Shown here in pieces: positions 5,421 to 21,331 of a stretch of DNA of 21,487 nt. The notes beneath the pieces are model-generated. The model was given only the letters and a program-made list of their open reading frames with translations, had not been told where the DNA came from and made no database searches. Both the position numbers and the translations under genes were made by a program. Within the stretch, counting starts at the first letter, position 1; each line of letters starts with the position of its first letter. The stretch lies in the IMG/VR virus record IMGVR_UViG_3300044655_001207, positions 1 through 21,487 of that record. One strand, given 5' to 3'. The stretch comes from a virus.

Positions 5421-5423
5421 TAA

Positions 5424-7427
5424 ATGGCCATTAAACCTTTAAACAATATAGGTGGAAAAAATTTATCGTATGTCGGTAAAGATTTTGAAACATTAAAACA
5501 AAATCTTGTTGATTTTACAAAAACATATTTTCCAAACTCATATTCCGACTTCTCCGAAGCTTCACCTGGAACAATATTCATAGACCAGGCAGCTGCCATT
5601 GGTGATATGTTATCATTTTACCAAGATGTTCAATTAAAAGAATCGATGTTGGCACATGCAACAGAGAAAAAGAATATTGTGTCAATTGCACAATCTATGG
5701 GATATAAACCAAAAGTTACATCCCCTGCAGTTTGTGAAGTGACTATTTATCAATTAGTTCCAGATGATGGTACTGGTATACCCGATGATAGATATTTTTT
5801 GAGAATTAAAGATGGTATGGAGATAGAATCGACCTCTAATTCTTCTATAATATTTAGAACAACAGACGCAGTTGACTTTACAATATCAGCAAGTAGAGAG
5901 GTAGAAGTTTACGAAAGATTGAACACAGGAGTTCCTTCAAAATATTTGATAAGTAAAAAAGTAAAAGCAATTTCTGCACAAGAAGTATCAACAACTATCA
6001 CAATGGGTTCAGATACGGATTACCCAAGTATAACTTTATCAGATTCAAACATTATACAAATCATATCGGTAATAGATGATGATAACAACACATATTATGA
6101 AGTTCCTTATTTAGCACAAGAAAGTGTTTTTGTTGAAAAACCAAATACACAATATAATAGTGACCAATATTTACAATCAGGAGAAGTTCCGTATATATTA
6201 GAAGTACAAAAAGTACCTAGAAGATTTTCAGTTAAAGTAAATTCGGATAATACAATGGATTTACAATTTGGTAGTGGTGATACAAATTTATCGGATGAAA
6301 GCATTTTACCAAATACAAAAAATGTTGGATTGGGTTTAGGAAATTCAATACAAAGATTAAATCAAGGAATTGACCCATCAAATTTTTTGAAAACTAATAC
6401 ATTCGGAATAGCACCTGCAGGAAGAACTTTAACTATAAAATATTTAGTCGGTGGTGGTGTTACATCAAATATAAATCAAAACGATTTAACTAAAATTAGA
6501 AAAATAGAATTTGACGATGATTTACTATCAATTCCTACCGAACTATTAGCATCTTATAATGATACCAAGTCCTCAATAGCCGTTGAGAATCTAATTGCAG
6601 CTACTGGTGGAAGAGGAAGTGAATCAATCGAAGAAATTAGACAAAATGCATTGGCAACATTTGGTTCTCAAAACAGAGCAGTGACCAGACAAGATTATAT
6701 CGTAAGAGCATTATCGATGCCGGAAAGATATGGTAGTGTTGCTAAAGTATATGTAAGTCCGGATGGTGAAATTGATAATAATTCTCCTGCATCGATACTT
6801 GCAAATCCTAAAAATATTGCAGAATTTACTAATTTGGTAGATTCAATCAAAGGATTACCAAAACAAGATATACAAAAAGAATTGGTTAAATATCTTACTC
6901 AAAAGAAAACAAATATAGCAGAGGTAAACAATCCATTTGCAATCAATATGTATATTTTGGGATATGATGAGAATAAAAAATTAACAAACTTAAATTCTGC
7001 CATAAAAGAAAATCTTAAAACATATTTAGGTGAATATAGAATGATTACGGATGCAGTTAATATGATTGATGGATTTATTGTAAACATTGGAGTTGATTTT
7101 GAAATAATTTGTTATTCTAATTATAACAAAAGAGAAATTGTTACTCAATGTTTAACCGAATTACAATCTCATTTTGATATAGATAATTGGACATTTAATA
7201 AACCAATAAACATTTCGGAAATAGAATTAATTCTTGCAAATGTAGAGGGAGTTATGAGTGTACCATCCGTAAAAATTTCAAATCTATGTGGTGTTGACGG
7301 AAACTATTCACCCAATAGATATAATATAGATGAAGCAACTAAAGGTAAGATTGTCTATCCTTCTTTAGACCCATGTATATTTGAAGTTAAATTTCCTAAC
7401 AAAGACATCAAAGGGAGGGCAATATAA
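5424..7427 (+). CDS. Baseplate wedge protein, gp6-like (baseplate J family)
   Basis: A 667-residue protein, nearly the same length as T4 gp6 (660). The N-terminal block, residues 15-96, has the expected pattern: YVGKDFETLKQNLVDFTKTY, then DFSEASPGTIFIDQAAAIGD, a helix with FYQDVQLKESML, and NIVSIAQSMGYKPK. The middle is beta-rich and includes RFSVKVNSDNTMDLQFGSGD. The segment GRGSESIEEIRQNALATFGSQNRAVTRQDYIV (about 393-424) is the conserved turn-and-helix of baseplate J/gp6 proteins. The C-terminal part (about 480-667) is the gp6 dimerisation-type region. The protein forms the ring that joins wedges into the hexagonal baseplate. It follows the gp25-like gene by three bases, and its last codons carry the ribosome-binding site of the next gene. 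Confidence 0.92.
   Translation: MAIKPLNNIGGKNLSYVGKDFETLKQNLVDFTKTYFPNSYSDFSEASPGTIFIDQAAAIGDMLSFYQDVQLKESMLAHATEKKNIVSIAQSMGYKPKVTSPAVCEVTIYQLVPDDGTGIPDDRYFLRIKDGMEIESTSNSSIIFRTTDAVDFTISASREVEVYERLNTGVPSKYLISKKVKAISAQEVSTTITMGSDTDYPSITLSDSNIIQIISVIDDDNNTYYEVPYLAQESVFVEKPNTQYNSDQYLQSGEVPYILEVQKVPRRFSVKVNSDNTMDLQFGSGDTNLSDESILPNTKNVGLGLGNSIQRLNQGIDPSNFLKTNTFGIAPAGRTLTIKYLVGGGVTSNINQNDLTKIRKIEFDDDLLSIPTELLASYNDTKSSIAVENLIAATGGRGSESIEEIRQNALATFGSQNRAVTRQDYIVRALSMPERYGSVAKVYVSPDGEIDNNSPASILANPKNIAEFTNLVDSIKGLPKQDIQKELVKYLTQKKTNIAEVNNPFAINMYILGYDENKKLTNLNSAIKENLKTYLGEYRMITDAVNMIDGFIVNIGVDFEIICYSNYNKREIVTQCLTELQSHFDIDNWTFNKPINISEIELILANVEGVMSVPSVKISNLCGVDGNYSPNRYNIDEATKGKIVYPSLDPCIFEVKFPNKDIKGRAI
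7412..7418 (+). promoter_or_regulatory. Strong Shine-Dalgarno site AGGGAGG
   Basis: AGGGAGG lies 8 bases before the ATG at 7427, inside the last codons of the gp6-like gene. It is the only clear purine-rich Shine-Dalgarno sequence I found before any start in this window; the other starts have A/T-rich leaders or stop/start overlaps. This start also has a TAATG overlap, so reinitiation and direct ribosome binding may both operate, which fits a high-copy structural protein. Confidence 0.6.
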
Positions 7428-8521
7428 TGCATAAATTTTTCACATCATCATTTGACGCAAGTATATATCTTCAACAACCTGAACAAAACGCAGGTAGGGA
7501 TGAGATATTAGAAGTAGGTAAACTTTATTATGGTTCTACTATGGATATAGCTAGAACTTTAATTAAATTTAATACAACACAAATTTCACAATCAATTGTA
7601 GAAAGTATAGGAACAGGAAGTTATTCTGTTTTTTTAAATCTTAAATCTGCAAATTCCGAAGAAATACCTTTAGAATATACATTATATGCAAATGCTGTAT
7701 CTGGAAGTTGGAAAATGGGAACTGGTACTAAATTTGACAACATAACATCGGATGGTGTAAGTTGGTATTATTTGAATGGTTCTTCGAAGTGGCAAGACAT
7801 ATCAGGTTCCTATCCTGCTCAAACGGATACATCTTCTATATTAAATGGTGGTGGTGGTTTATGGTATAGTGCATCAATTGCATCACAATCATTCAGTAAT
7901 GAACCAGATGATATTAGAATGGATGTAACAAATATTGTAAAACTATGGATTAGTGGTTCAAATAGATTAACCAATGATGGTATCATATTACACCACCACA
8001 CATCGGCATCATTATATACTGATACAACGGACTATGGTGTATTAAAATTCTTTTCTAAGGAAACAAGTACAATATATGAACCTAAATTAGAATTAGTTTG
8101 GGACGATAGTTTATTTACAACAGGAAGTTTAACACCTGTAACCGGTTCTGCAGAAGATGGTTATAAAGTAGTAGTTACAAATCTTAAAAGAGAATATCCT
8201 TCAAACTCTAAAGTAAAAATAAGAGTTAAAGGTAGAGATATGTATCCTTTAAAAACATTTACAACCGGGTCTTTTGCATACGACCAATCAAAATATCTAC
8301 CATCAGGTTCGGTTTACTATCAAATAGAAGATTATGTAACAAACGAAACAATTGTTCCATTTGGAGATTATTCTAAATTAAGTTGTGATAGTACATCAAA
8401 TTATTTTAACTTAGATACATCGACATATCCAATAAATAGAACATACAAATTAAAACTAAAAATAGTTGAAAGTGGTATATCTACTATTATAGATGATAAA
8501 TTAATATTTGAAATAGTATAA
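7427..8521 (+). CDS. Beta-rich tail/baseplate protein with DNRLRE-like domain
   Basis: A 364-residue, Ser/Thr/Gly-rich beta protein. Residues 1-212 resemble the DNRLRE fold found in cell-surface proteins: an opening DASIYLQQPEQN, the strand TLIKFNTTQIS, then DVTNIVKLWISGSNRLTNDG with IILHHH, and a closing strand FFSKETSTIYEPKLELVWDD. Residues about 213-364 look like an Ig-like or fibronectin-like domain (GYKVVVTNLKREY, KVKIRVKGRDMYPL). No catalytic motif is visible. Position immediately after gp25 and gp6 is where T4-like genomes keep wedge proteins gp7 and gp8, but I see no sequence evidence for either. A peripheral baseplate or fibre-base protein, perhaps binding host glycan, is the most reasonable reading. 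Function is inferred. Confidence 0.65.
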   Translation: MHKFFTSSFDASIYLQQPEQNAGRDEILEVGKLYYGSTMDIARTLIKFNTTQISQSIVESIGTGSYSVFLNLKSANSEEIPLEYTLYANAVSGSWKMGTGTKFDNITSDGVSWYYLNGSSKWQDISGSYPAQTDTSSILNGGGGLWYSASIASQSFSNEPDDIRMDVTNIVKLWISGSNRLTNDGIILHHHTSASLYTDTTDYGVLKFFSKETSTIYEPKLELVWDDSLFTTGSLTPVTGSAEDGYKVVVTNLKREYPSNSKVKIRVKGRDMYPLKTFTTGSFAYDQSKYLPSGSVYYQIEDYVTNETIVPFGDYSKLSCDSTSNYFNLDTSTYPINRTYKLKLKIVESGISTIIDDKLIFEIV

Positions 8522-8523
8522 TA

Positions 8524-9624
8524 ATGACCAATTTAGAAGCAATTTCAATTAAACTTAAAGAAGAGAAAGATAAAGAATTAGAGTCTATACTTAAGATATC
8601 AGGGTCTGCTGCTAATGTTAAAAATGAATATGGTGTTACAATCGTAGATGATACAAATGTTGCATCTTCTTTGGTTTTTAAAAATTTAAGTAAACCAAAA
8701 TATGATGATGTTGAACTTATTAAGGCAATAGATGTAGATATAAAGGAATTAAAACCAAACATACCTACACCAAATTTAGATTTAGTACCAAGACCATTAT
8801 ACACAGAACAAGTTGATTTAGTTGCAGATTTAAGAAAACAAGTAGAAAGATTAACAATAACGATTACCGATTTAAATAGCCAAATAACAACTTTACAAGC
8901 ACAAGTTCAAACGGAAATAAATAATAGATTAAGTATTGAGCAAACGAACGATGCATTGGCAAATCAAATAGACACATTGACTGGTACGATTAATGATTTT
9001 ACTGGCCAGATATCAACATCATTACAAAAATCGGTTGATGAAAGTATTTTAAGAGCATCACTACAATCTCAAAATACAGGGTTTAAAGCACAAATCAATG
9101 CATTAATTCAACAAATAAATTCATTAAACTCAATTATCGAAGGTCTACAAGCTCAATTGGGTGCAGTAAGACAACAAAAAGAAATTGAACAAGAAACAAA
9201 AGGACAGGGTGGTACTAATATAAACAAAGTAGTTAGTGCAAACTTTGATGAAAAGGGAACCCCTAGTGATGCGGTAATGTCTTATAAGATTAAGAACGCA
9301 AGAGACAAGGCCCATCAATGGATTTATGGTGAAAATTTAACTCTTGTAAATAATGATTTAGAACCGGTACAGGTATCAATAACTGCAAATTGGGGGCAAA
9401 ATCAAAGATGGTTTAGTATACCAAAAGCTAATTTTGAAATTTCACCCGGTGCAACGGAAAGAATTAAATTTATAGGTACTCCTAATGGTGTAAGTTTTGG
9501 TAAAAGAGACAACACTGTATTTTATGATGGCAGTCTTACTATTACAATTAAAAGAAAAGATGGTACATCAGAAACCAAATCATTCACCACCAATTTAAAA
9601 GTAGCACATCCAAAATCATACTAA
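8524..9624 (+). CDS. Coiled-coil fibre-like protein with C-terminal beta domain
   Basis: A 366-residue protein. Residues 95-222 form a long coiled coil with regular hydrophobic spacing (LRKQVERLTITITDLNSQIT, INALIQQINSLNSIIEGLQA). A Gly-containing hinge (226-232) follows, and residues 262-366 are a beta-sandwich-like domain (HQWIYGENLTLVNNDLEPVQ, WFSIPKANFEISPGATERIK). The N-terminal ~90 residues are charged, with a Pro-rich stretch (KPNIPTPNLDLVPRPL). This stalk-plus-head layout matches trimeric fibre or whisker (fibritin-like) proteins of tailed phages, but no fibritin signature is seen. It begins two bases after the preceding stop and probably shares that transcript. Trimerisation is inferred from the coil only. 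Confidence 0.65.
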   Translation: MTNLEAISIKLKEEKDKELESILKISGSAANVKNEYGVTIVDDTNVASSLVFKNLSKPKYDDVELIKAIDVDIKELKPNIPTPNLDLVPRPLYTEQVDLVADLRKQVERLTITITDLNSQITTLQAQVQTEINNRLSIEQTNDALANQIDTLTGTINDFTGQISTSLQKSVDESILRASLQSQNTGFKAQINALIQQINSLNSIIEGLQAQLGAVRQQKEIEQETKGQGGTNINKVVSANFDEKGTPSDAVMSYKIKNARDKAHQWIYGENLTLVNNDLEPVQVSITANWGQNQRWFSIPKANFEISPGATERIKFIGTPNGVSFGKRDNTVFYDGSLTITIKRKDGTSETKSFTTNLKVAHPKSY

Positions 9625-9630
9625 TATAAT

Positions 9631-10944
9631 ATGTCAATAAAAAAATATACAAATATTGAAGGAATAAATAATAAAACTGAAAATGAAGGACAATTTCTTC
9701 AAACGGATGATTTATTTATTGTTTCAAAAACGGAAATAGATACTACTGATTTTGGTGATTGTAAGTATGATGTTATGGAAGTGTCATTATATGATATCAA
9801 TAATAATATCTTACCACAATCATCGGGTAATAATGTTGCATATATTAAAATGGGTGACATTAAAAATTATATGTACCAAATAACAAATAAGCAAGGCCTT
9901 AAAGAATTGGCCATCGATGCAGAAAAGTTAATAAATGATTTAGGGTACACAAATGGTATTATTAAAGTTAATATAAATTTTGTTAGATATAAAGTTGGAA
10001 GTGAAGATGTATTAGAAAGTGTTTGGATTGAAGAAATTTCTCCATCAAGAGAAGAAATTCGTATTGTTCCACTTAAAACAAAATCTGCAGATATCAATAA
10101 TAAAACAAAAAATCAATTTAAAAATTTAGAAAATTTAAATAAAGATTTTAAATATTATAAACAAGCTTTATTGAATTCTTTAAATTCTTTTGATAACACA
10201 TTTTTAGATAAAATTAATTCTCACTTAGAAACAAATTATGGTAAAGATTTTTTTAATATTCTTAAAAAAGATTTTGGGTTAAGTAATTTTAATATTATAA
10301 GAGATAAAATATCCAATGACTTTAAACAATCGGTTGATTATTATGTAAATAACAAATATTATAAAATATCAGAATCTAGATTTGGGAAACCATCTGACAT
10401 AAGATTTGAAGATTGTGAAGTTTATGATTTTAATGATATGATATCTACAATACAAAATATTTTAACAGAGTGCATTAATTTTAATTTAAAAAGTTTAAAA
10501 AGAAGCGAATTAAATTTAAAAACATTACCTAAAGAATTTGCAGTAACAGAATTACAAAAGCAAATTCAAAATAATTTGGATTCATTTAATACATTTACAC
10601 AAACAAAAAGAAACGTTTATTCACCCGATGGTACAGCGGCTGTGTTTAATGATGTAACAAGTTCATTCGTAGAACCAACACACCCATTAAGAGGAACTCT
10701 ATTAAATACATTTTGTAAAGGATATAACCAATATGGAAAATATGCCGATGGTAATGGTGGTTTTTATGAACAATTGATTGAAGTTAATTCTTCAACATGT
10801 GGATATACACCACCAAATGATGGAGGAGGAAGTGGCGGTGGTTCCGGCGATGGTGGTGGTGGCGGTTATATTCCAATCGGTGACCCAAATGATGGTAGAG
10901 AACGAACAGTTGGTGGAACAGGTAGAGCGGAAAATTTCAGATAA
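9631..10944 (+). CDS. Virion structural protein with Gly-rich C-terminus
   Basis: A 437-residue protein. Residues about 105-147 carry NGIIKVNINFVRYKVGSEDV and WIEEISPSREEIRIVP. This beta segment ending in EIS-x-SR-x-EIR is one I associate with baseplate or tail structural proteins of T4-like phages. Residues 160-320 are helical and Asn/Lys-rich. A compact block with two cysteines (C362 and C390; FCKGYNQYGKYADGNGG and SSTCGY) precedes a Gly-rich linker (397-411) and a short polar tail ending in ENFR. The two-Cys GY-x-x-Y-x-YADG-GG block looks like an independent small module. Both this gene and the next start with MSI and border on Gly-rich segments, which suggests flexible joints between neighbouring baseplate parts. 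No enzymatic motif is visible. Confidence 0.65.
   Translation: MSIKKYTNIEGINNKTENEGQFLQTDDLFIVSKTEIDTTDFGDCKYDVMEVSLYDINNNILPQSSGNNVAYIKMGDIKNYMYQITNKQGLKELAIDAEKLINDLGYTNGIIKVNINFVRYKVGSEDVLESVWIEEISPSREEIRIVPLKTKSADINNKTKNQFKNLENLNKDFKYYKQALLNSLNSFDNTFLDKINSHLETNYGKDFFNILKKDFGLSNFNIIRDKISNDFKQSVDYYVNNKYYKISESRFGKPSDIRFEDCEVYDFNDMISTIQNILTECINFNLKSLKRSELNLKTLPKEFAVTELQKQIQNNLDSFNTFTQTKRNVYSPDGTAAVFNDVTSSFVEPTHPLRGTLLNTFCKGYNQYGKYADGNGGFYEQLIEVNSSTCGYTPPNDGGGSGGGSGDGGGGGYIPIGDPNDGRERTVGGTGRAENFR
10819..10866 (+). repeat. GGN-rich low-complexity run encoding a Gly linker
   Basis: A run of GGA/GGT/GGC codons broken by Ser and Asp codons encodes a flexible glycine linker near the C-terminus of the 437-residue protein. 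A second run, GGTx5 GCT GGA GGTx3, lies 220 bases downstream at 11089-11121 in the next gene. Codon use within the first run is mixed (GGA, GGC, GGT), so it is not a pure microsatellite. Confidence 0.7.
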
Positions 10945-10948
10945 TAAA

Positions 10949-10957
10949 ATATTTATA
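10949..10957 (+). promoter_or_regulatory. Candidate phage promoter box ATATTTATA
   Basis: ATATTTATA lies in the 24-base gap before the 1597-residue protein, 11 bases before its ATG. It matches the boxes at 15781, 17752 and 19001. No TTG -33 element is found at the right spacing. If it is a -10 type promoter, the leader would be only about five bases. Confidence 0.4.
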
Positions 10958-10968
10958 AAAAATAATAG

Positions 10969-13900
10969 ATGTCAATAAGATACAATAGACAATATAAAAT
11001 GGCAGCGGACATAGAGGGCCCTGTTGGGCCCAATACTAACGAAGACCAGACCAATTTAAATTTCTTAAATAATAATGATGTATATTTAGGTGGTGGTGGT
11101 GGTGCTGGAGGTGGTGGTAGTGCACCTGTGGAAACTCCTGTTTATATAGACCCACCATATACTACCAACCCCCCTATTGATATAATACAACCGACACCGG
11201 AAAATCCAACTCCAAACGACCTATTAGTTCCATTGTTTAATTATGAAATTGCAATATCTTCAAATTTACAAGAAGAAGCTGGTGATTTTATCAAATTAAA
11301 ATATGATATACTTTCAAACGGGGCCATACAAGAACAAGGTGATGTATTACTTTCCGATTACAATACCGATGGATTATCATCGGCAAGAGAAGTATTAAAA
11401 TCAGGTATTTTAAATCTTTATTTGGAAAATAATCTACCTTCAAATTATAGTATATCTAAAATATATTATACAAATAAATTAATTGCAACAAAAAATCCAA
11501 CCGATTATACAAAATGGAATGTTGGTAATAATTTTATAGGAATACAAGCTTCCGAATTACTTACAGGTGGTGTTGCAGTTGCCGTTATTGTTGAAAAAGT
11601 AATTAATTCGCCAAAACCTACTATATTTTTAAATACAACAAAATATAGTAAACAAATTAAAGATTCGGATGGAGATACAATCATTAATGTTGATTTTAAA
11701 GAAATTGATTGTAATTATATTGATTTTTATTTATCAGAAACAAAATCAATTAGAGTAGAATCTGGTATAGGTAATTGTGCACTATCTTTTTTAAACAATT
11801 TTGACGGAATATATGGTAATAAAAAAATAATAGTAGTACCTTATAGTAATTTATATGGAACAGGTGATAAAGTTGAATTTACTATTAATTTTATTGCAGT
11901 CAATGATTTCCCATCTATTACAGAAATTGAATATGTCGATACAATAGAAATTCCGGCATATTCGGATTTAAATATTGAATATGATGTAAAATATTCATCA
12001 TTTGCAGCTAGTTCTATTGATGTATTTTTAGTTTTAAAAGATAAAACTAAAGTAGGTATATTTGAAAAATTAACACCAAATGGTTCTTTTAAAATAAATT
12101 TAAAAGATTTAGCTACAAGATATTCACAATGGAATGGTAACGACAATGTAACTTTAATATTCAAACCATATAATAGAAGTGGTGTCGAAGAATTGGTTGG
12201 AAATGAATATGAAATAAAAACTTTATTAATATATCCAGTATTACAAATAGATGAAGATATTATTAAAAAATCAATATTTGAAGCATTCTTACAAAATTTT
12301 CATATTAATGAACCAGAAAAAGAAAGTAAACATTTAACACATCTTGCTAATTTTGGTAACAATGAACAAATTATAATATCTTCTTGGGAAAAAGATGATT
12401 GGACTTTATCTAAAAAATCTACGGATGAATTGGGTAACGAAATAGTTAAACCAGATGATAGAGTTGAATCTATAATATTAAAATTATATAGTCCACTCCC
12501 TACAAATATAAATGAAAATTCTACTTTTTGGATTACAAAATTATTAACAAATCCATTAGTAGAAACGGTAGTATTAAATGAACAAAATTTATTAAAATGT
12601 CCTCCGATAAAGGGGCCTAATTTTGATATAGATGTAGATTTTGTAAAAGGCAAATCTACAAATTATGAATCATTAGATGATTTAATATTAAACGCAGCTC
12701 CATCGGCATCGACAAACTTAATATCTAAATATTTAAGTGGTTCTTTAATGAATGTTGAAGATTTGAATATAGAATATACAAGTGGTTCAACTTATAAGTG
12801 GGAAAATTTTGTACATTTTAGTTCTGCAAAAGAAAGAGTTGATAATTTTGTTTACAAAGTACAATTGATTGAAGTATATGAAAATTTAGTACAAAGTGCA
12901 CAAACTGCATCTTGGAGTTCATCGTTGGCATCACAACAAGAACAACAAAAACAAACAACCAAAAAAGAACAATTAATACAGGGATTTGATGGATTTGAAA
13001 AATTCTTATATACATCATCTTCGTTGTCTTGGCCGTATACATTAGATACCAGAACCAATAGTTCTGCAGGAACAGTTACAACTTGGTATGATAATATTAT
13101 TGTATTAGCTGAAAATTATGATAAAGAAAATAGTAACTGGATTCAAAATAATATTCCACAATATATTGTAAATAATACTGAGAATGATAGTTTATTATTA
13201 TTTTTCTCTATGATAGGTCAGCATTTTGATAATATATATTTTCATACAAAATCTATTGAAAAAAGTAGAGGATTAGGGTATAAGGCTAAGGATGGTATTT
13301 CGGATAAATTATTATTTGATACTTTAAAATCATTTGATTGGGATGCAAAAAATTTAGATTCAGATTCTCAATTATGGAAATACGCATTTGGTTTAGATTC
13401 CGATGGTAATACTAAACAAACGAATCCAGGAAAACAAAGAACATACGAAGTTTGGAGAAGAATTATAAATAACTTACCTTATTTATTAAAACATAAAGGA
13501 ACCAGAAGAGGTATATATGCATTAATGAGTTGTTATGGTATTCCTTCATCAAATCTTTCAATTTTAGAATTCGGTGGCCCGGAAGTAACTGAAGTATCCA
13601 AAAGTAAATTGGTATATGATAATGTAACCACAGCTTTAAAATTTACATCAGGGTCTTCAATTCAAATGGGGTGGCAAAATACTAATAAAAATAGAAAACC
13701 AGATACGATTGAATTATTTGTTAAACCAACTGCTTCAGGTAATTATAATGTGGTAACTGGAGTAGAAAGTTCTTTAACAATTAATATAAGTGGTAGTGTT
13801 GGTAGTAAATATGGTGTTGTTAAAATTGGCACTACTACTGGTGAATATGTCACATCATCTTTATTACCAATATTTAATGATAAGTTTTTTGGAATAAAAG

Positions 13901-15762
13901 CTTCCAGAGAAATTAGTGGAAGTTATCATAATTTGGAATTGAGTGTAAGACAATCGGAAAAAGAAAGAACTATATTTGAAGAAACTAAAACAGCATCAAT
14001 ATCCAATACAATATCGGTGTGGGACAATGGTTCAACATTACAACTTGGAAGTGGATTTGTTGGAAGTGTAGATGAATTTCGTTTATGGAGTACACCATTA
14101 GATAAAGAAAGATTTTATGAACACGTTTCTTTTCCTGAAATGATTAATGGAAATAGCGTATCAGCATCTACGGATGATTTACATTTTAGATTGGACTTTG
14201 AATATCCAAAAAATTTAGCAGTATCACAATCATTAATAAATGTCGATACAAACATATTTTACCCATTAATACAAATTAACCCATCCAGTTCTTTACAAAT
14301 AACAAGAAACATATTAGAAACAACCGGTTCTATTGGTAATAATGTAATTTTATCAACAAATGTATCGGCATCTTTCATAGCAACTGCCATTGGATTTACA
14401 TCCGTAACATCGTATCCATATCAATTTGAAGCAATAGATAGAAGTGTAGTATTGGAAATTCCTGATTTGGGTTCTGGCAGATATTCTACAAATAAAGTTA
14501 GATTTGAATCACAAACATTGATTTCGGATTTATCTTCAAAAAGTAGAGCAACTAAAAAGGCATTTGACCAATCTCCAACCGATTCAAATAGAGTTGGTTT
14601 ATTCTTCTCTCCTACAAAAGAATTGAATATTGATATTGCTAAGTCATTTGGTGGAATCAATTTAGATAATTACATAGGTAACCCTTCTGATATTTATAAA
14701 TCAAATTATTCCGAATTAGATTCTTTAAGAAATTATTATTTTAAAAGATTTGATGGCAGAGATATTTACGCATACATTAACTTAATCAAACTATATGAGA
14801 AATCAATGTTTGAAGATATTAAGAAAATGTTACCTGCAAGAGTTAAAGCCACTACTGGTTTATTAATTGAACCCCATATATTAGAAAGAAGTAAAATAGC
14901 TCACAAAAAACCAACAGGTGCCGATTATCAACAAGAAACGGAAATTCATTATAGTGATACGACAATATTATCTGCCGATAATCAACAATATGAAACCATT
15001 GTAGATGCAAATTTATCAGAAAATTTATTTGGAGAAAATAATCAATACGAAGCTCAAATATACACAGCGTCAGTTGAAGATATAATTGCAGAAAATTATC
15101 AATATGATGCAGAGATATTCACATCTTCAATTCAAAATATAATTGCAGAAAATTATCAATATGAAGTTTCAATACCGGCTGGGTTAGATGAACCAACTTT
15201 TCAAACCGAATTGGATATAATCAATGGTACTCAATTAGTCGGACAATCTACATTTGAAGAAATTGGGTTTGAAATTTATGCACAGAGTGGTTCCGCAATT
15301 AGAACATATTTTAATACGGATAATAAAATAGTTAAAGAAAGAGTTAGAGTGAATTTAGTAACTGAACAAAAAAGTAGAGACGTAGTTAAATATAAAGTTG
15401 TTGTAAATGGTAAAGGAGACCCTAGAGGTGGTAGTGAATTGACATCTTCTATTTATTATGAAACTAAATTAAATATACAACCATTTATAAATCCAAAAAC
15501 AGGATTACCATCAATAGTACCTGGTGTTGGTGGTGATATAGTTGCAGTAGTACCTGTGGATGGATATTTACCAACACATTATAGAAATACTTCCGATTTA
15601 ACAACTGGTATGATGAACTCATATTTTAAAGGTTCAAAAAATACAGCAGCAACTACATTGGATGGTACTTCTCCAATTGAAACATTTGTATCTAATCCAA
15701 ATACATTAACTGTAAACAAAACTGGCAGAAGTACATCTGAACCGATTTTAGAAGTAGAATAA
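10969..15762 (+). CDS. Giant baseplate/tail-fibre structural protein with LamG-like domain
   Basis: A 1597-residue protein, the largest in the window. In order: a Gly-rich N-terminal linker (41-51) and Pro-rich spacer (52-90); Ig-like or cadherin-like beta domains (about 93-430) with DSDGDTIINVDF; a helix-rich section containing YEVWRRIINNLPYLLKHKGT followed by RRGIYALMSCYG (826-857), a block recurring in phage tail proteins; a LamG/concanavalin-like domain (about 905-1050) with GFVGSVDEFRLW; a conserved helix FKRFDGRDIYAYINLIKLYE with MLPARVKATTGLLIEPHILE (about 1258-1306); tandem ~19-residue QYE repeats (1336-1405); and a conserved C-terminus with YFKGSKNTAATTLDG ending in EPILEVE. It occupies the place of the large wedge/fibre protein in the cluster. 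The LamG-like domain suggests carbohydrate contact. Whether it is gp7-like cannot be decided from sequence alone. Confidence 0.75.
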   Translation: MSIRYNRQYKMAADIEGPVGPNTNEDQTNLNFLNNNDVYLGGGGGAGGGGSAPVETPVYIDPPYTTNPPIDIIQPTPENPTPNDLLVPLFNYEIAISSNLQEEAGDFIKLKYDILSNGAIQEQGDVLLSDYNTDGLSSAREVLKSGILNLYLENNLPSNYSISKIYYTNKLIATKNPTDYTKWNVGNNFIGIQASELLTGGVAVAVIVEKVINSPKPTIFLNTTKYSKQIKDSDGDTIINVDFKEIDCNYIDFYLSETKSIRVESGIGNCALSFLNNFDGIYGNKKIIVVPYSNLYGTGDKVEFTINFIAVNDFPSITEIEYVDTIEIPAYSDLNIEYDVKYSSFAASSIDVFLVLKDKTKVGIFEKLTPNGSFKINLKDLATRYSQWNGNDNVTLIFKPYNRSGVEELVGNEYEIKTLLIYPVLQIDEDIIKKSIFEAFLQNFHINEPEKESKHLTHLANFGNNEQIIISSWEKDDWTLSKKSTDELGNEIVKPDDRVESIILKLYSPLPTNINENSTFWITKLLTNPLVETVVLNEQNLLKCPPIKGPNFDIDVDFVKGKSTNYESLDDLILNAAPSASTNLISKYLSGSLMNVEDLNIEYTSGSTYKWENFVHFSSAKERVDNFVYKVQLIEVYENLVQSAQTASWSSSLASQQEQQKQTTKKEQLIQGFDGFEKFLYTSSSLSWPYTLDTRTNSSAGTVTTWYDNIIVLAENYDKENSNWIQNNIPQYIVNNTENDSLLLFFSMIGQHFDNIYFHTKSIEKSRGLGYKAKDGISDKLLFDTLKSFDWDAKNLDSDSQLWKYAFGLDSDGNTKQTNPGKQRTYEVWRRIINNLPYLLKHKGTRRGIYALMSCYGIPSSNLSILEFGGPEVTEVSKSKLVYDNVTTALKFTSGSSIQMGWQNTNKNRKPDTIELFVKPTASGNYNVVTGVESSLTINISGSVGSKYGVVKIGTTTGEYVTSSLLPIFNDKFFGIKASREISGSYHNLELSVRQSEKERTIFEETKTASISNTISVWDNGSTLQLGSGFVGSVDEFRLWSTPLDKERFYEHVSFPEMINGNSVSASTDDLHFRLDFEYPKNLAVSQSLINVDTNIFYPLIQINPSSSLQITRNILETTGSIGNNVILSTNVSASFIATAIGFTSVTSYPYQFEAIDRSVVLEIPDLGSGRYSTNKVRFESQTLISDLSSKSRATKKAFDQSPTDSNRVGLFFSPTKELNIDIAKSFGGINLDNYIGNPSDIYKSNYSELDSLRNYYFKRFDGRDIYAYINLIKLYEKSMFEDIKKMLPARVKATTGLLIEPHILERSKIAHKKPTGADYQQETEIHYSDTTILSADNQQYETIVDANLSENLFGENNQYEAQIYTASVEDIIAENYQYDAEIFTSSIQNIIAENYQYEVSIPAGLDEPTFQTELDIINGTQLVGQSTFEEIGFEIYAQSGSAIRTYFNTDNKIVKERVRVNLVTEQKSRDVVKYKVVVNGKGDPRGGSELTSSIYYETKLNIQPFINPKTGLPSIVPGVGGDIVAVVPVDGYLPTHYRNTSDLTTGMMNSYFKGSKNTAATTLDGTSPIETFVSNPNTLTVNKTGRSTSEPILEVE
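11089..11121 (+). repeat. GGT-rich microsatellite encoding a Gly linker
   Basis: Five GGT codons, GCT, GGA, three GGT and AGT encode residues 41-51 of the giant structural protein. The near-pure GGT run is prone to slippage in steps of one codon, which would change linker length without breaking the frame. Confidence 0.65.
14974..15174 (+). repeat. Tandem in-frame repeat, ~19-residue QYE units
   Basis: Four successive units in the giant structural protein: ADNQQYETIV..., ENNQYEAQIYTASVEDIIA, ENYQYDAEIFTSSIQNIIA and ENYQYEVSI. Between the last two units 28 bases are identical (15080-15107 and 15137-15164), spaced exactly 57 bases (19 codons). The first units have diverged at DNA level. This indicates recent duplication of a beta-strand-like element just after the conserved helix region. 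Confidence 0.85.
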
Positions 15763-15780
15763 CGAAATTTAAAAATAATT

Positions 15781-15789
15781 ATATTTATA
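15781..15789 (+). promoter_or_regulatory. Candidate phage promoter box ATATTTATA
   Basis: ATATTTATA lies in the 47-base A/T-rich gap before the 207-residue structural gene, 20 bases before its ATG. With the preceding T it reads TATATTTA, which resembles a Bacteroidota -7 box. No TTG occurs at the 20-base spacing upstream, so it is more likely a phage-specific late-type element. Confidence 0.45.
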
Positions 15790-15809
15790 TCAAACGATAA
15801 TACAACACT

Positions 15810-16433
15810 ATGGGATATTTAAGTAACACAGAATTAACAGTTGATGCTATCCTTACAAAAAAAGGTAGAGAAAAATTAGCTGCAGGACAAGGATTAAACA
15901 TTACTCAATTTGCCTTAGCAGATGATGAGATTGATTATTCTTTATACGAACCGGCACATCCATTGGGTTCAGCATATTATGATGCGGCAATTAAAAATAT
16001 GCCAGTCTTAGAAGCTAATCCAGATGAAACACAAGTAATGAAATACAAATTGGTAACTCTTCCAAAAAATACAACTAGAATTCCTGTTGTTGAATTTGGA
16101 GTTCCTAATATTTCAGTTAATCAAAAAAGTGGTGAAGTTGCATTATCACCAACTACATCTCCAGCGGGAAATAGAAGTATGGGATATACTATTGTATTAT
16201 CTAACAAAAACGCAGGAGATATCATCGGTGAAGGAGTAACATCGGATATTGGTTCGGTTCCTTTGTTTATTGGTGATGATGTATCAGCAACAGCAGTTGT
16301 AGCAAAGGGAATATCATTTAAATTTATTCCAAACCCATCATTAACATCAACAATTAGAACAACATTAACAGTTTATGGTAATGAGACAGGTGGTTCTCAA
16401 ACTATTCCAATCACAGTAACTTACGTTCAATAA
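15810..16433 (+). CDS. Conserved phage virion structural protein, 207 residues
   Basis: The N-terminal ~85 residues form a distinctive block: LTVDAILTKKGREKLAAGQG, LNITQFALADDEIDYSLYEP, AHPLGSAYYDAAIKNMPVLE and DETQVMKYKLVTLP. I recall this block from uncharacterised structural proteins of marine T4-like phages. Residues 95-207 are a beta-rich domain (GYTIVLSNKNAGDIIGEG, ISFKFIPNPS, TLTVYGNETGGSQTIPITVT) resembling an Ig-like sandwich. The KKGREKLA start resembles small tail proteins that bind at an assembly interface, but no function is established. It stands after a gap with an ATATTTATA box, and a second structural gene follows ten bases later. Its codons are regular, as in a highly expressed gene. 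Confidence 0.75.
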   Translation: MGYLSNTELTVDAILTKKGREKLAAGQGLNITQFALADDEIDYSLYEPAHPLGSAYYDAAIKNMPVLEANPDETQVMKYKLVTLPKNTTRIPVVEFGVPNISVNQKSGEVALSPTTSPAGNRSMGYTIVLSNKNAGDIIGEGVTSDIGSVPLFIGDDVSATAVVAKGISFKFIPNPSLTSTIRTTLTVYGNETGGSQTIPITVTYVQ

Positions 16434-16442
16434 TAAAAAACT

Positions 16443-17693
16443 ATGGCATTAATTAGAGACAATAGAGGAAGCCTTTTAGCAAGTAATTTATCACAATACT
16501 TAGCAGGTGCAGCAAACACCGCAGGCACTCCAGTAGATACTAACGAATTAGTTAGAATCGTAAACCAATTTTTAGGAACAGGTGAACAAATTAGTTCCGA
16601 TATTAATACTATTTCAAATGGTATTTATAAAAAATTTGGAACAATTGATAAAGTAACTAATAGAACACAAATCGTGACTTCTGGAATATGGAGTGGTGAT
16701 ACCGGTTCATTGGATGTGAAAGCAAACTATACTTCATCTGCACAAGTTGCATCTACAAGTGGTAAATACTATTTAGATGTTTATAACACAACCGCAACGG
16801 GTTCTGGAGAAGTTCAGTTCTCAATTGCATATGGTGATGCATTGGGATTTGGTGCACCGACTTTAACTCAAAACGATGATTCAACTTCTCCAACAAAAGC
16901 AACTTATAATCAATATAAGAATGTATTATTGGATAGTTCGGATAATTATTTTAGTGTATATACAGGTTCAACTGCCGGCGGACATGATATGACATCTTTC
17001 TACGCAATTAATGTAAATAGAGCAAGATACAAAGAAAGATTAGACCCAGGAAATATCTCAATAGATTTATCAGGTTCAATTAGAAGTATTACTTTAATAG
17101 ATGATAGTGGTGGAACAGATGAAAATGTAACAACTGCAGGAAGAGTTTATAACTTAGTAAGTGGTTCGTTAAATATTGGTTCGGCATTAAGTGCATCAAT
17201 CGCTACAACCGGTGGATATAGTGCAGCACAAAATGGACAAGGATATGGTTTATTTTATCCAGATATGGGTATTATATTATTAAATCCAAAAGCATTGGCT
17301 GCAGCATGTGACCCCCTTTTAGCAGAAGCTAAAAATTCAATTACATCAATATATCACCAAAATAATGGTAACACCTCAGGTTCGGTTGCATTATTGATGG
17401 CAATTAGTGGTGGTGCAGACTTCCAAGTAAGAAGAACTGAAAATGTTTCTACTTCTCATTACTTTGTAAGAGCAAACAATAGAGAATTCAATTTTTCAAA
17501 CAATCCAACATTTGTAACAGGTTCAGTTGGACAATTTGTTCAATCATTATTTGAAAAAGACCCTCATGTTTATATTACAACGGTAGGTTTATACGATGAT
17601 GCAAATGAATTATTAGCAGTAGCAAAAACTTCTAAACCAGTTGAAAAATCTTTTGATAAAGAAATAGCAATTAAAGTTAAATTAGACTTCTAA
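16443..17693 (+). CDS. Virion structural protein, 416 residues, with C-terminal GLYDD module
   Basis: A Ser/Thr/Gly-rich protein. Its N-terminus (ALIRDNRGSLLASNLSQYLA) is followed by beta segments. A conserved stretch NRARYKERLDPGNISIDLSG with LIDDS (about 194-222) is followed by GYGLFYPDMGIILLNP and a helix. The C-terminal module has ANNREFNFSNNP (344-355) and ITTVGLYDDANELLAVAK (378-395) and ends in IKVKLDF. The same module, with 13 of 18 identical residues in the GLYDD segment, ends the 409-residue protein after the terminator. I recall this ending from structural proteins of T4-like marine phages; the exact role is unknown. It is not a tail sheath: no sheath signature is visible. It is the last gene before the terminator at 17711-17746. 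Confidence 0.75.
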   Translation: MALIRDNRGSLLASNLSQYLAGAANTAGTPVDTNELVRIVNQFLGTGEQISSDINTISNGIYKKFGTIDKVTNRTQIVTSGIWSGDTGSLDVKANYTSSAQVASTSGKYYLDVYNTTATGSGEVQFSIAYGDALGFGAPTLTQNDDSTSPTKATYNQYKNVLLDSSDNYFSVYTGSTAGGHDMTSFYAINVNRARYKERLDPGNISIDLSGSIRSITLIDDSGGTDENVTTAGRVYNLVSGSLNIGSALSASIATTGGYSAAQNGQGYGLFYPDMGIILLNPKALAAACDPLLAEAKNSITSIYHQNNGNTSGSVALLMAISGGADFQVRRTENVSTSHYFVRANNREFNFSNNPTFVTGSVGQFVQSLFEKDPHVYITTVGLYDDANELLAVAKTSKPVEKSFDKEIAIKVKLDF

Positions 17694-17710
17694 TCGGAGA
17701 ATAAAATAAA

Positions 17711-17746
17711 AACTATAACCCACCTTAATTTGGTGGGTTTTTAGTT
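17711..17746 (+). terminator. Intrinsic terminator after the structural operon
   Basis: An 8-bp perfect stem AACCCACC (17717-17724) / GGTGGGTT (17732-17739) encloses a 7-base loop, TTAATTT, and is followed by TTT. An outer helix AACTA (17711-17715) / TAGTT (17742-17746) extends it across a small internal loop. The GC-rich core is striking in an AT-rich region. It lies 23 bases after the stop of the 416-residue gene and just before an ATATTTATA box, so it separates two transcription units. Confidence 0.9.
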
Positions 17747-17751
17747 TTGAG

Positions 17752-17760
17752 ATATTTATA
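17752..17760 (+). promoter_or_regulatory. Candidate phage promoter box ATATTTATA
   Basis: ATATTTATA begins six bases after the terminator stem and ends six bases before the ATG at 17767. A gene placed straight after a strong terminator needs its own promoter, which supports a promoter role for this box. The distance predicts a leaderless or nearly leaderless mRNA. Confidence 0.5.
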
Positions 17761-17766
17761 AGTGAT

Positions 17767-18996
17767 ATGTTAAAAAGAATACCAAAGTCAGATATTAGTA
17801 TTAGGCCATTTAAAGCCTATAAAGATTGGGATAGATTATCAGCAAGTGCATCTGTGTTATTAGCCGAAAATGGTGATTATACCAAAACAGAAATGGTTGA
17901 TATAATGGTTGGTCATTTAAGTGGTTCATCGTATAATAAACATTCGGTATATGGACAATTAAGAGCCCAATTCTATAATGATTTAGGTGATAATCCATTT
18001 ACTAGAACAGGACATAAAACAAAATCATACATATCCGCAACTTTAGTTAAAGAAAGATTTTTAAGTGGTAGTGCAAAAGTAATATCAATTCCAAATGTAT
18101 ATGTTGGTGAGGGAATAAAAAAAGGGTCTGTTATTTTAAAGGATAATATTAATGAATTAGATGAAGTTTCATATTTTGATGATTCATTTGGAAACCTACA
18201 AGATGACAGAGACCAAATTAATATTTCTAGAATTGATATGGGTGGTGGGCCCGGTAGTCAACTAATAAATTTTACAGATTTATCAGAATACGTTTATAGT
18301 GCGTCATTTGAAGAAATACCGGGTGATGCGGTTGATATACAATTAGGAACATTGGATATTATCTATAATGGGATACAACAACCAACAATACAATTGGTTA
18401 GTTTAGATATCGAATCAGGTATAGCGATTGCCGAAGACATACCATTTTTACCAGAAGAGTCACAGGGTATAAAAATTGGCAATGTATTTTATAATCAAGG
18501 ACTAATTGTATTAACTAAAGATTCAGCATTAAAATTACAAAATCAATGGACGTTGGATTATAAATCTACACAAACCATATATGAACATGAGTATTTATTG
18601 ATTGCCAATGAAGATGAATTTAATGTATCACAAAATCCATCAGCAATAGTGGAGATTGGTAAAATTACAGAATTTATAACAGGTTCGGATAATAAAATTT
18701 ATAAGACAACTACTAATCCAGGTGTAAAATATATTAAAAAGAAATCCATATTAGAAACGGGTGAAATATTAGATTATAGATTTGCATCAAATTATACATC
18801 ATCGGTTAGTGGTGGATTTGAACATTATGATTTAAGTGGTTCGGTAGATAGTACCGGCTCGTTCTTAACACCATTCATTACAACTATTGGATTATATGAT
18901 GATAATTGTGATTTAGTAGCGGTGGCAAAATTACCTCAGCCAATTAAATCATATCCGGATTTACCGGTAAACTTTATTGTACGATTTGATACATAA
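17767..18996 (+). CDS. Virion structural protein, 409 residues, C-terminal paralogue of the preceding protein
   Basis: The N-terminus starts MLKRIPKSDISIRPFKAYKD. It has beta-rich segments with ATLVKERFLSGSAKVISIPN (about 95-115) and SEYVYSASFEEIPGDAVDIQ. The C-terminal module has ANEDEFNVSQNP (280-291) and ITTIGLYDDNCDLVAVAK (371-388), clearly related to the end of the 416-residue protein, with 8 of 12 and 13 of 18 identical residues. The N-terminal halves are not obviously related. The two proteins probably dock to the same ring or partner through this module. The gene lies directly after the terminator with an ATATTTATA box six bases before its ATG, so it is transcribed separately. Function is unknown beyond a structural role. 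Confidence 0.72.
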   Translation: MLKRIPKSDISIRPFKAYKDWDRLSASASVLLAENGDYTKTEMVDIMVGHLSGSSYNKHSVYGQLRAQFYNDLGDNPFTRTGHKTKSYISATLVKERFLSGSAKVISIPNVYVGEGIKKGSVILKDNINELDEVSYFDDSFGNLQDDRDQINISRIDMGGGPGSQLINFTDLSEYVYSASFEEIPGDAVDIQLGTLDIIYNGIQQPTIQLVSLDIESGIAIAEDIPFLPEESQGIKIGNVFYNQGLIVLTKDSALKLQNQWTLDYKSTQTIYEHEYLLIANEDEFNVSQNPSAIVEIGKITEFITGSDNKIYKTTTNPGVKYIKKKSILETGEILDYRFASNYTSSVSGGFEHYDLSGSVDSTGSFLTPFITTIGLYDDNCDLVAVAKLPQPIKSYPDLPVNFIVRFDT

Positions 18997-19330: not shown

Positions 19331-19756
19331 ATGGCTAAAAAAGTTACAAAAAAGAACAATCCAAAATGGGTTGCACAAAAATATGGATTTAAGTCTGGTT
19401 TAGAAGAAACCATCTCTCAACAAATAGAATCACAAGGAATTAAAGTAGAATATGAAACCGAAAAAGTTCCATACATAATTCCTGCATCCACTCATCACTA
19501 TCATCCCGATTTCAAATTACCCAATGGTATTAGAATAGAGACAAAAGGTAGGTTTGTGGCAGCTGACCGTAAGAAACATTTGTTGGTTAAAGAACAAAAC
19601 CCAAATATGGACATTAGGTTCGTATTTTCCAATTCAAAGAACAAAATTACCAAAAAGTCTAAAACGACCTATGGGGATTGGTGTGAAAAGAACGGATATA
19701 AATATTCGGACAAAATCATCCCAAATGAGTGGTTTTTAGAGGAAAATAGACCGTAA
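19331..19756 (+). CDS. T7 endonuclease I-like Holliday junction resolvase
   Basis: A 141-residue protein, close to the 149 residues of T7 gp3. The PD-(D/E)xK catalytic residues are all present: Glu25 in FKSGLEE, Asp60 in YHPDF, and Glu70 and Lys72 in IETKGR. They are spaced exactly as Glu20, Asp55, Glu65 and Lys67 of T7 endonuclease I, shifted by five. The C-terminal pattern KITKKSKTTYGDWCEKNGYK, followed by IPNEWF, is typical of the family. The enzyme cleaves four-way and branched DNA, resolving recombination or replication intermediates before packaging. T4 itself uses endonuclease VII (gp49), of a different fold, so this is a swapped module. It starts five bases after the 99-residue gene, and its stop codon is part of a 35-bp repeat carrying the next promoter. 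Confidence 0.93.
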   Translation: MAKKVTKKNNPKWVAQKYGFKSGLEETISQQIESQGIKVEYETEKVPYIIPASTHHYHPDFKLPNGIRIETKGRFVAADRKKHLLVKEQNPNMDIRFVFSNSKNKITKKSKTTYGDWCEKNGYKYSDKIIPNEWFLEENRP

Positions 19757-19787
19757 AATATTTGGTAATATCAAATATTTGTCGTAT
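19753..19787 (+). repeat. 35-bp direct repeat, copy 1, with dyad operator
   Basis: This stretch is identical to 20346-20380. It contains the TAA stop of the endonuclease (19754-19756) and the dyad AAATATTTG (19756-19764), 7 bases, CAAATATTT (19772-19780). It also holds most of a promoter. The arms can be read as tandem AAATATTTG sites 17 bases apart. Location over the promoter spacer suits an operator. Confidence 0.85.
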
Positions 19788-19792
19788 CTTTA
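19762..19792 (+). promoter_or_regulatory. Bacteroidota-type promoter for the SPFH gene
   Basis: TTG (19762-19764), 20 bases, TATCTTTA (19785-19792). This fits TTG-N19-21-TAnnTTTG with one mismatch in the last base. Transcription should start near 19798, leaving a leader of about a dozen bases (TATAAAATAAAGGT) before the ATG at 19810. The dyad spans the spacer, so a bound repressor would block polymerase. Confidence 0.68.
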
Positions 19793-19809
19793 TTATATAA
19801 AATAAAGGT

Positions 19810-20349
19810 ATGTTAGATAAATTAGTACAAGTATTAGAAAGATTTGGTTATCAATTAATGCCATTCGTTATTATTGAAGAATGGAATGCCGGAGTACATT
19901 TAAGAAATGGGAAATGGATTAATACATTATATAGTGGTTTACATTTTAAGATACCATTTTTTGATAATGTAATTGAAACACCTGTTATTACTCAATCAGT
20001 TAATTTACCCTCACAAACCCTAACAACATTAGACGAACAAAGTATTGTATTGAAATCAATTATTAGATACAGAGTTAGTAATGTAAGAACCTATTTATTG
20101 GGTGTGATGCATGCAAACGATGTCTTAATTGATACGACACAAGGAATGATTAGAGATGTAGTGGAGTTAACAACTTGGGATGACTTAGTGGATGTAAACG
20201 AAACAATAACTGACAAGGTGAAAGAATATGTAGTAAAGTGGGGAATTGAAGTCGAAGCAGTAACAATAACAGATTTGGGAATTGTTAAAAGTTTCCGTAT
20301 TTTTGGAGACGAAACACATAAAACAACAATATTACCAAGTGATATGTAA
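19810..20349 (+). CDS. SPFH/Band 7 (stomatin/prohibitin-like) domain protein
   Basis: A 179-residue protein that is almost only the SPFH domain. The pattern is clear: EEWNAGVHLRNGKW (23-36), SGLHFKIPFFDNV (42-54), a strand with VNLPSQTLTTLDEQSIVLKS (64-83), IIRYRVSNV (84-92), a helix, and WGIEVEAVTITDLGIVKSFR (144-163). Cellular stomatins and prohibitins carry an N-terminal membrane segment and a C-terminal coiled coil; both are missing or minimal here, with only a short hydrophobic stretch (QLMPFVII, 15-22). Family members form membrane-associated rings that restrain proteases such as FtsH. A phage copy could protect phage proteins or alter host membrane complexes, but this is inferred. It has its own promoter and operator and lies next to the resolvase and primase, so it is probably expressed with the replication genes. 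Confidence 0.85.
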   Translation: MLDKLVQVLERFGYQLMPFVIIEEWNAGVHLRNGKWINTLYSGLHFKIPFFDNVIETPVITQSVNLPSQTLTTLDEQSIVLKSIIRYRVSNVRTYLLGVMHANDVLIDTTQGMIRDVVELTTWDDLVDVNETITDKVKEYVVKWGIEVEAVTITDLGIVKSFRIFGDETHKTTILPSDM

Positions 20350-20380
20350 AATATTTGGTAATATCAAATATTTGTCGTAT
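20346..20380 (+). repeat. 35-bp direct repeat, copy 2, with dyad operator
   Basis: Identical to 19753-19787. It contains the TAA stop of the SPFH gene (20347-20349) and the same dyad, AAATATTTG (20349-20357) and CAAATATTT (20365-20373). Beyond the identical 35 bases one base differs (C to A) and the next four, TTTA, again agree. Confidence 0.85.
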
Positions 20381-20385
20381 ATTTA
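20355..20385 (+). promoter_or_regulatory. Bacteroidota-type promoter for the primase gene
   Basis: TTG (20355-20357), 20 bases, TATATTTA (20378-20385), with the same architecture as the promoter at 19762. Transcription would start at about 20390-20392, on top of the GTG start codon of the primase. The mRNA from this promoter should therefore be leaderless. Confidence 0.65.
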
Positions 20386-20389
20386 AAGG

Positions 20390-21331
20390 GTGTTGAAGCA
20401 AAATGATAAGAATATAGTCGTATCTACTCTAACCGGTGTCTTAGGTAGTCATCTTACCCTAAAAGGGAATGAGTTGGCATTTTACTGTCCTTTTTGTAAT
20501 CATCACAAACCAAAACTACAAGTTAATACAGAAACTCAAAAGTGGCATTGTTGGACTTGTAATAGTGGTGGTAAAAAATTGACCTCTTTATTAAAGAAAT
20601 TAGATGTTGATAGGAAGACTATTTCGGTTATTAGAGAGATATACGGAGATAGCAATTATAACCCACTTTTAGAGGATGCCGATACAAAGGTGTTCATTTC
20701 CCTACCAAAAGAATTTATTAGTCTTAGTGAGATTCCTAAAGGGTTTAATCCGGAATATAAACATGCAATACATTACCTTACTCAAAGAGGAATAGGTATT
20801 AAAGATATAATCAAATATAACATAGGATATTGTAAAGAAGGATTATATGGACAAAGAGTAATTATACCATCATATAATTCCGATGGCACATTAAATTACT
20901 TTGTTTCTCGTTCATATTATCCGGAGAACAAAATGAAATACAAAAATCCTCCAATCAGTAAAAATGTAATATGTTTTGACTCCCAAGTAAATTGGAACGA
21001 ACCGATTATACTGTGTGAAGGTGTATTTGATGCAATCACAATTAAAAGAAATGCAATTCCATTATTAGGTAAGTTTCCATCCAGAACATTGGTTGAAAAA
21101 ATCTTTATGAGTGGAATTACCGATATTATTATTTCATTAGACAACGATGCAATAAATGAGGCACTTAAAGCTGCCGAATATTTTAGAAAACAAGGTATTC
21201 ATGTAAAAATGATGTATCTTAAAGACAAAGATGCCGCCGATATGGGGTATGAAAAATTCTATGAGGAATTAAAGAAAACCAAAGAGTTTTCTCCCGAAGA
21301 ATTATTATTAAACAAAATAAACTCACTATGA
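20390..21331 (+). CDS. DNA primase (DnaG/gp61-like: zinc finger plus TOPRIM)
   Basis: A 313-residue protein, near the size of T4 gp61 (342). A CxxC...CxxC zinc-binding domain has Cys33 and Cys36 (FYCPFC) and Cys54 and Cys57 (WHCWTC). The TOPRIM domain has Glu210 in IILCEGVFDA and the DxD pair Asp251/Asp253 in IISLDNDA, followed by KDKDAADMG (278-286). The segment YGQRVIIPSYNSDGTLNYFV (153-172) is the primase core strand pattern. It makes RNA primers for lagging-strand synthesis with the replicative helicase. GTG at 20390 is chosen as start because no in-frame ATG lies before the zinc finger; TTG at 20393 is the alternative. It follows the SPFH gene by 40 bases holding a repeat-borne promoter. 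It ends with an ATGA overlap onto the gp47-like gene. Confidence 0.92.
   Translation: MLKQNDKNIVVSTLTGVLGSHLTLKGNELAFYCPFCNHHKPKLQVNTETQKWHCWTCNSGGKKLTSLLKKLDVDRKTISVIREIYGDSNYNPLLEDADTKVFISLPKEFISLSEIPKGFNPEYKHAIHYLTQRGIGIKDIIKYNIGYCKEGLYGQRVIIPSYNSDGTLNYFVSRSYYPENKMKYKNPPISKNVICFDSQVNWNEPIILCEGVFDAITIKRNAIPLLGKFPSRTLVEKIFMSGITDIIISLDNDAINEALKAAEYFRKQGIHVKMMYLKDKDAADMGYEKFYEELKKTKEFSPEELLLNKINSL

Follow-up and report, generated by a model that had tools for sequence, protein, structure and literature searches.

We found that the stretch of DNA analysed here (the window, a virus record of 21,487 bp that represents a fragment of a phage genome) encodes a stand-alone SPFH/Band 7 protein of 179 aa on its forward strand (positions 19,810–20,349). 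As its structural model shows, the predicted protein is a complete SPFH1+SPFH2 unit, in which an amphipathic helix takes the place of the transmembrane anchor and a short tail motif that of the coiled coil. Sequence comparisons place it in a family which is kept by purifying selection and whose gene behaves as an accessory gene moving between phage lineages. The SPFH domain and phage SPFH proteins are already known; the new variant is the stand-alone, amphipathic-anchored family present in several lineages. Membrane organisers of the SPFH type occur almost universally, and their core action is still disputed; a natural cut-down version, consisting of the domain and one helix and selected in many phages, constitutes a minimal test of the lone domain.

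Predicted fold and membrane anchor of the window protein

The window protein matches the Pfam family PF01145 (Band_7/SPFH) with an E-value of 2.8e-22 and 80 bits (cut-off 23.6), covering profile positions 2–149. A sequence search of the PDB returned HflK and stomatin, both at about 6e-8, with HflK as the best match (5.7e-8). The AlphaFold model, built from an alignment of 29 sequences, has a mean pLDDT of 83.4 and consists of an N-terminal helix (residues 2–16), the SPFH1+SPFH2 domain (residues 19–158; window positions 19,864–20,283, plus strand), also delimited by the Band_7 profile and by stomatin/HflK alignments, and a low-confidence tail after residue 160. Structural alignment of the model with the solved structures of stomatin, HflK, QmcA, prohibitin and Erlin gave Z scores of 14–17, those for stomatin, HflK and prohibitin being 15–17. 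The profile score, the pLDDT and the Z scores of 15–17 together exclude a chance match. Thus, the SPFH fold was recovered by structural comparison, and structure prediction bore out the original prediction of a minimal SPFH domain devoid of a transmembrane segment and a coiled coil.

Neither an N-terminal transmembrane helix nor a membrane hairpin was detected in the window protein (highest 19-residue Kyte-Doolittle, KD, mean of 1.19), and since it possesses no transmembrane helix or signal peptide, it is predicted to be cytosolic. The earlier statement that it has no clear membrane anchor holds as far as transmembrane helices are concerned, but not for residues 2–16 (19,813–19,857, plus strand), which are predicted to form a conserved amphipathic helix that we propose as a membrane-surface anchor. 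The hydrophobic moment of this helix ranges from 0.58 to 0.86 in the 29 aligned sequences, all of which are amphipathic here, and for every sequence at most 1.8% of shuffles reach as high a value. In turn, no C-terminal coiled coil follows SPFH2 in the AlphaFold model: the protein ends 21 residues past the last strand and its tail is modelled without a helix. The position where the coiled coil begins in other SPFH proteins is occupied by the conserved tail motif SFRIFGD (residues 161–167; 20,290–20,310, plus strand), which appears across the family alignments as hxSFRIhxD, with R163 invariant.

A stand-alone phage family among SPFH proteins

One scan of viral contigs yielded 49 relatives; with an alignment-based scan the number confirmed was 137, and 80 of these were retained. 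Sixty-seven different proteins were distinguished among 91 (the window's included), and they measure 166–185 aa. Nearly all begin with M[FL]D[KR], and the residues G34, G43, P49, F50, Q69, D75 and G145 of the SPFH core are shared. The family possesses no coiled coil and no transmembrane segment (19-residue mean KD of at most 1.8, against 2.2–2.5 in long phage SPFH proteins). In the phylogenetic tree it forms one clade apart from the tested cellular and long phage SPFH proteins (99/90 support), while three long phage SPFH proteins form a separate branch (99/96), outside which the window protein falls; the deep order of the tree is unsure because of several long branches. The dN/dS ratios lie between 0.02 and 0.25 in family pairs with usable divergence.

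The PHROGs collection holds no dedicated family for these proteins, which match only the domain part of phrog_200: the window protein aligns with profile positions 101–256 of 379 (E 5.8e-8), whereas long phage SPFH proteins cover positions of about 44–360 at 1e-55 to 1e-68. Among the named phages of the phage collection none encodes a close relative: over long matches, identity stays under about 36% throughout. In the literature searched, phage SPFH proteins are present as annotations only, namely in the T4-like phages 44RR, Aeh1 and RB43 (PMC1524935), which does not imply membership in phrog_200. A search for crAss-like phages together with SPFH returned nothing relevant, text matches to "prohibitin" in two phage papers proved to be the word "prohibiting", and the searched literature gave no description of a stand-alone amphipathic-anchored SPFH family fixed by the portal in one lineage.

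Similar to the window protein, long phage SPFH proteins (phrog_200) are phage-encoded and contain the SPFH domain, and some genomes have both kinds; yet they reach about 300–380 aa, are anchored at the N terminus by a transmembrane segment or as lipoproteins, and have a C-terminal coiled coil, features all missing from the window protein. Stomatin and QmcA share its SPFH1/SPFH2 fold (Z of about 16) and likewise expose the SPFH domain to the cytosol, but they are 17–24% identical to it and, unlike it, possess a membrane hairpin or transmembrane helix and a coiled coil. The SPFH domains of HflK and HflC are periplasmic, and none of the other hallmarks of these proteins, i.e., the transmembrane anchor, the coiled coils and the cage-forming ends, is found in the window protein either. 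A "prohibitin-like" open frame of 192 aa in Podoviridae sp. ctgrD200 (MW202733) resembles it in architecture, with an N-terminal helix-like stretch, an SPFH domain and a conserved R-L-L-x-D tail; this gene adjoins the terminase gene of a GC-rich phage of another lineage, and its product is about 16–26% identical to the window protein.

As for cellular proteins, the relatives found in 84,980 species genomes are long SPFH proteins with about 20–33% identity over the domain. At 71 cellular loci of this collection identity reaches about 33% at most over long matches, and up to 62% over short SPFH stretches of 34 residues. We infer from its relatives and its promoter type that the host of the window phage probably belongs to the Bacteroidota. 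SPFH matches were detected in 297 of 395 Bacteroidota genomes; among the matches listed, they score no more than 88 bits and lie in open frames of at least 246 aa, save one interrupted copy. In the species-genome search, identity between the window protein and Bacteroidota SPFH proteins was about 25%. Among these listed matches there were full-length SPFH proteins instead of members of the stand-alone family, and the window protein is no closer to Bacteroidota SPFH proteins than to others. With cellular identity low and the listed Bacteroidota frames long, a host-derived gene finds no support.

The insertion site and its duplicated promoter

We confirmed that the gene is located between a resolvase and a primase gene, as the original prediction had it. 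On the left it is neighbored by a gene for a T7-type endonuclease I, i.e., a Holliday-junction resolvase (19,331–19,756, plus strand; PF05367, Phage_endo_I, E 5.4e-59; phrog_945), and on the right by a DnaG-like primase gene (20,390–21,331, plus strand; phrog_47, E 1.7e-52; PF01807), 3' of which an SbcD-like frame starts. The membership in a replication cluster that had been proposed for it is thus real as a position; a functional tie is not upheld, since 62 related loci lack SPFH between endonuclease I and primase. In 61 of these 62 empty loci the two genes are parted by one promoter only (44–57 nt). The SPFH gene occupies the site in four records, the window and three others, where the gap is 637 nt. 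Compared with the 44 nt of most empty loci, the difference amounts to 593 nt, which equals the spacing of a promoter repeat flanking the gene, and so indicates that a unit of promoter and SPFH gene was added. The cassette between the two promoter copies spans positions 19,793–20,345 (plus strand), and the whole insertion unit, delimited by the endonuclease-primase distances and the repeat spacing, is 593 nt long. Judging by these sequence comparisons, the place of the SPFH gene among replication genes is incidental.

The first promoter copy (19,753–19,792, plus strand; a 40-nt direct repeat, D3) comprises a −33 element TTTG (19,761–19,764), a 20-nt spacer and a −7 element TATCTTTA (19,785–19,792), a reading that follows the Bacteroidota promoter consensus. 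It also contains 9-bp inverted arms, AAATATTTG and CAAATATTT (19,756–19,764 and 19,772–19,780). The second copy, before the primase gene (20,346–20,385, plus strand), is identical to the first at 39 of 40 positions and corresponds to the single copy of the relatives. The strongly conserved promoter core TTTGGTAATATCAAATATTTGTYGTATATTT occurs in 87 viral stretches (e.g., loci L187–L265), mostly directly 5' of the primase start where no SPFH gene is present, but before other genes too, and in 0 of 395 Bacteroidota genomes. The gene had been proposed to have its own operator-controlled promoter. The palindromic element is indeed there, but a private operator for SPFH is rejected: the element is a copy of the widely shared primase promoter of the window's phage group. 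Two 40-nt copies stand where empty relatives have a single one; what had been read as an "operator" is thus a phage promoter that was duplicated.

Comparison of empty with filled sites shows how phages can gain a gene with its own promoter. The simplest route of gain would be a recombination event between copies of the promoter. In the tree, the window protein is nested in a clade from other phages, as sister to the protein of a large phage (L004), and a similar promoter lies directly 5' of the SPFH gene in two phages (L011 and L012) whose clade includes the window protein. Among the four carriers the SPFH gene shows no amino-acid changes and a dS of 0.01–0.02, versus 0.18–0.29 for endonuclease I and primase. 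We considered that the cassette had swept recently, but this reading is weakened by the tail genes, which at a dS of 0.00–0.03 are as close among the four carriers as SPFH; the pattern is therefore that of a recombination mosaic and not proof of a sweep. The one remaining locus without SPFH, L220, has another, larger insertion there, about 980 nt long, between endonuclease I and a single promoter copy; the site may therefore take up cargo of more than one kind. Elsewhere in the window (4,983–18,996) there is a tail/baseplate module akin to those of the cyanophage Microcystis phage Mel-JY01 (41%) and of Flavobacterium phages immuto (38%), a likeness which suggests that the window phage is a T4-like myovirus.

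Gene contexts and possible roles

The gene context of the family differs between lineages. In crAss-like phages, assigned as such by terminase, portal and capsid homology, the SPFH gene lies directly 3' of the portal gene in 36 loci and 5' of a gene for a scaffold-like acidic protein in 37, followed by the major capsid protein gene. The crAss-like Leptolyngbya phage Lbo-JY46 retains the same order (portal, a 407-aa protein, a capsid-sized protein) without the SPFH gene, which argues that SPFH is not a core head factor. In large phages the stand-alone gene is situated among small ORFs of an uncharacterised type, and in the window, jumbo-phage and other lineages it lies outside the head cluster. 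Hence, when gene neighbourhoods were surveyed for homologues that might be virion components, a head-cluster position emerged for crAss-like phages but not for the other lineages. Three large phage records encode both a stand-alone and a long SPFH protein (phrog_200), and a 209-kb relative with an empty endonuclease-primase site encodes a long one. No long SPFH protein was found in the crAss-like records searched; pairing with it is therefore not general.

We tentatively regard the protein as a membrane-surface SPFH scaffold on the cytosolic face that supports phage takeover or assembly. Its amphipathic helix and a hydrophobic SPFH1 surface would attach it to the cytosolic side of the inner membrane, where it would assemble side by side with itself through SPFH2, possibly also with the long coiled-coil SPFH protein in phages having one. 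On the resulting platform phage proteins might be retained or, as originally suggested, shielded, or the platform might affect the turnover of host membrane proteins; in either way it would serve takeover or assembly at the membrane. In solved complexes of Erlin and of prohibitin, SPFH1 itself is in contact with the membrane (PMC12624060). Full-length SPFH rings are built with the coiled coil and the C-terminal region, neither of which is present in the window protein, but stomatin SPFH domains on their own still associate into dimers, trimers or fibril-like assemblies when the full coiled-coil cage is missing (PMC9663324, PMC9157467). Membrane binding and oligomerisation are predictions, with which the helix is consistent; the tail motif and the residues past 160 have low confidence in the monomer model, and the neighbour genes converge on no single pathway.

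The crAss-like gene order points to a more specific role which, by analogy, we consider rather unlikely for the family: a head-assembly helper that provides a membrane platform where the portal ring and scaffold start, much as T4 gp40 acts with gp20. The T4 prohead starts from the membrane-bound portal (gp20) in a gp40-dependent manner (PMC9958956), and the parallel with this portal-assembly chaperone is a possible functional one, drawn from the crAss-like gene position and claiming no sequence relation. In addition to the 36 loci with the gene between portal and scaffold-like and capsid genes, and to the portal and terminase homology with crAss-like phages, the terminase-adjoining frame of the same architecture in the unrelated podovirus ctgrD200 speaks for such a role; the locations outside the head cluster and the order in Lbo-JY46 speak against it. 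The same position in the crAss-like clade would also fit a virion component, but contexts in all other clades are non-structural and the text of the crAss001 virion atlas (PMC10172136) makes no mention of SPFH, crAss001 not being a known carrier, so that we give this reading the least credence of all. The fixed place beside the portal in abundant crAss-like phages nevertheless raises the question of where and how heads begin assembly. That a virus-specific SPFH protein of several unrelated lineages, cut down to the domain and an amphipathic helix, forms a membrane platform for portal/prohead initiation, or co-assembles with long phage SPFH proteins, seems doubtful; if true, an SPFH scaffold would serve virus assembly and not protease control.

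Rather than supporting the phage's own structures, the protein could act on those of the host: as originally predicted, the short subunit would enter host SPFH rings as a decoy. Lacking a coiled coil, it might open or block them, or it might modulate FtsH control. It does present a complete SPFH1/SPFH2 interaction unit without the coiled coil, and most of the surveyed Bacteroidota carry SPFH proteins. Sixteen phage records, several of them fragments, yielded no FtsH-type protease, so any FtsH effect would hit the host enzyme. Nevertheless, this proposal finds no support in the low scores of the listed Bacteroidota matches (best 88 bits), which are full-length proteins, nor in the identity of about 25% to Bacteroidota SPFH proteins, to which the window protein is not specially similar; its predicted cytosolic location, as opposed to the periplasmic SPFH domains of HflK and HflC, makes a decoy in HflK/HflC rings in particular less likely. 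We judge a decoy or modulator improbable overall, although a decoy among cytosolic SPFH proteins is conceivable. Even less probability attaches to a neutral passenger brought in by recombination without benefit to the window phage. Although only four of the 66 sampled endonuclease-primase loci carry SPFH (window counted), the family-wide purifying selection, the intact promoter and ORF and the lack of amino-acid changes among the four carriers argue against it.

Several further genes were observed near SPFH genes. Two jumbo-phage loci (L182, 3–5,358, and L183, 1–5,535) show what resembles a conserved cassette: genes for a large protein, then a MoxR-like AAA ATPase, a protein resembling metallopeptidases (clearly so in L182) and a small membrane protein precede the long SPFH gene (phrog_200). 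Seven large-phage loci (L004, at 5,515–5,994, L010, L013, L014, L015, L127 and L128) have a gene for a secreted NlpC/P60-like peptidase (cluster c40) in the vicinity of the stand-alone SPFH gene, directly upstream of it in four of them. In many loci (L016–L032 and L129–L142) the SPFH gene is followed on its 3' side by a conserved group of genes for small proteins (clusters c10, c11 and c18) and, likewise, by a gene encoding a DnaJ-like protein with zinc-ribbon repeats (c12).
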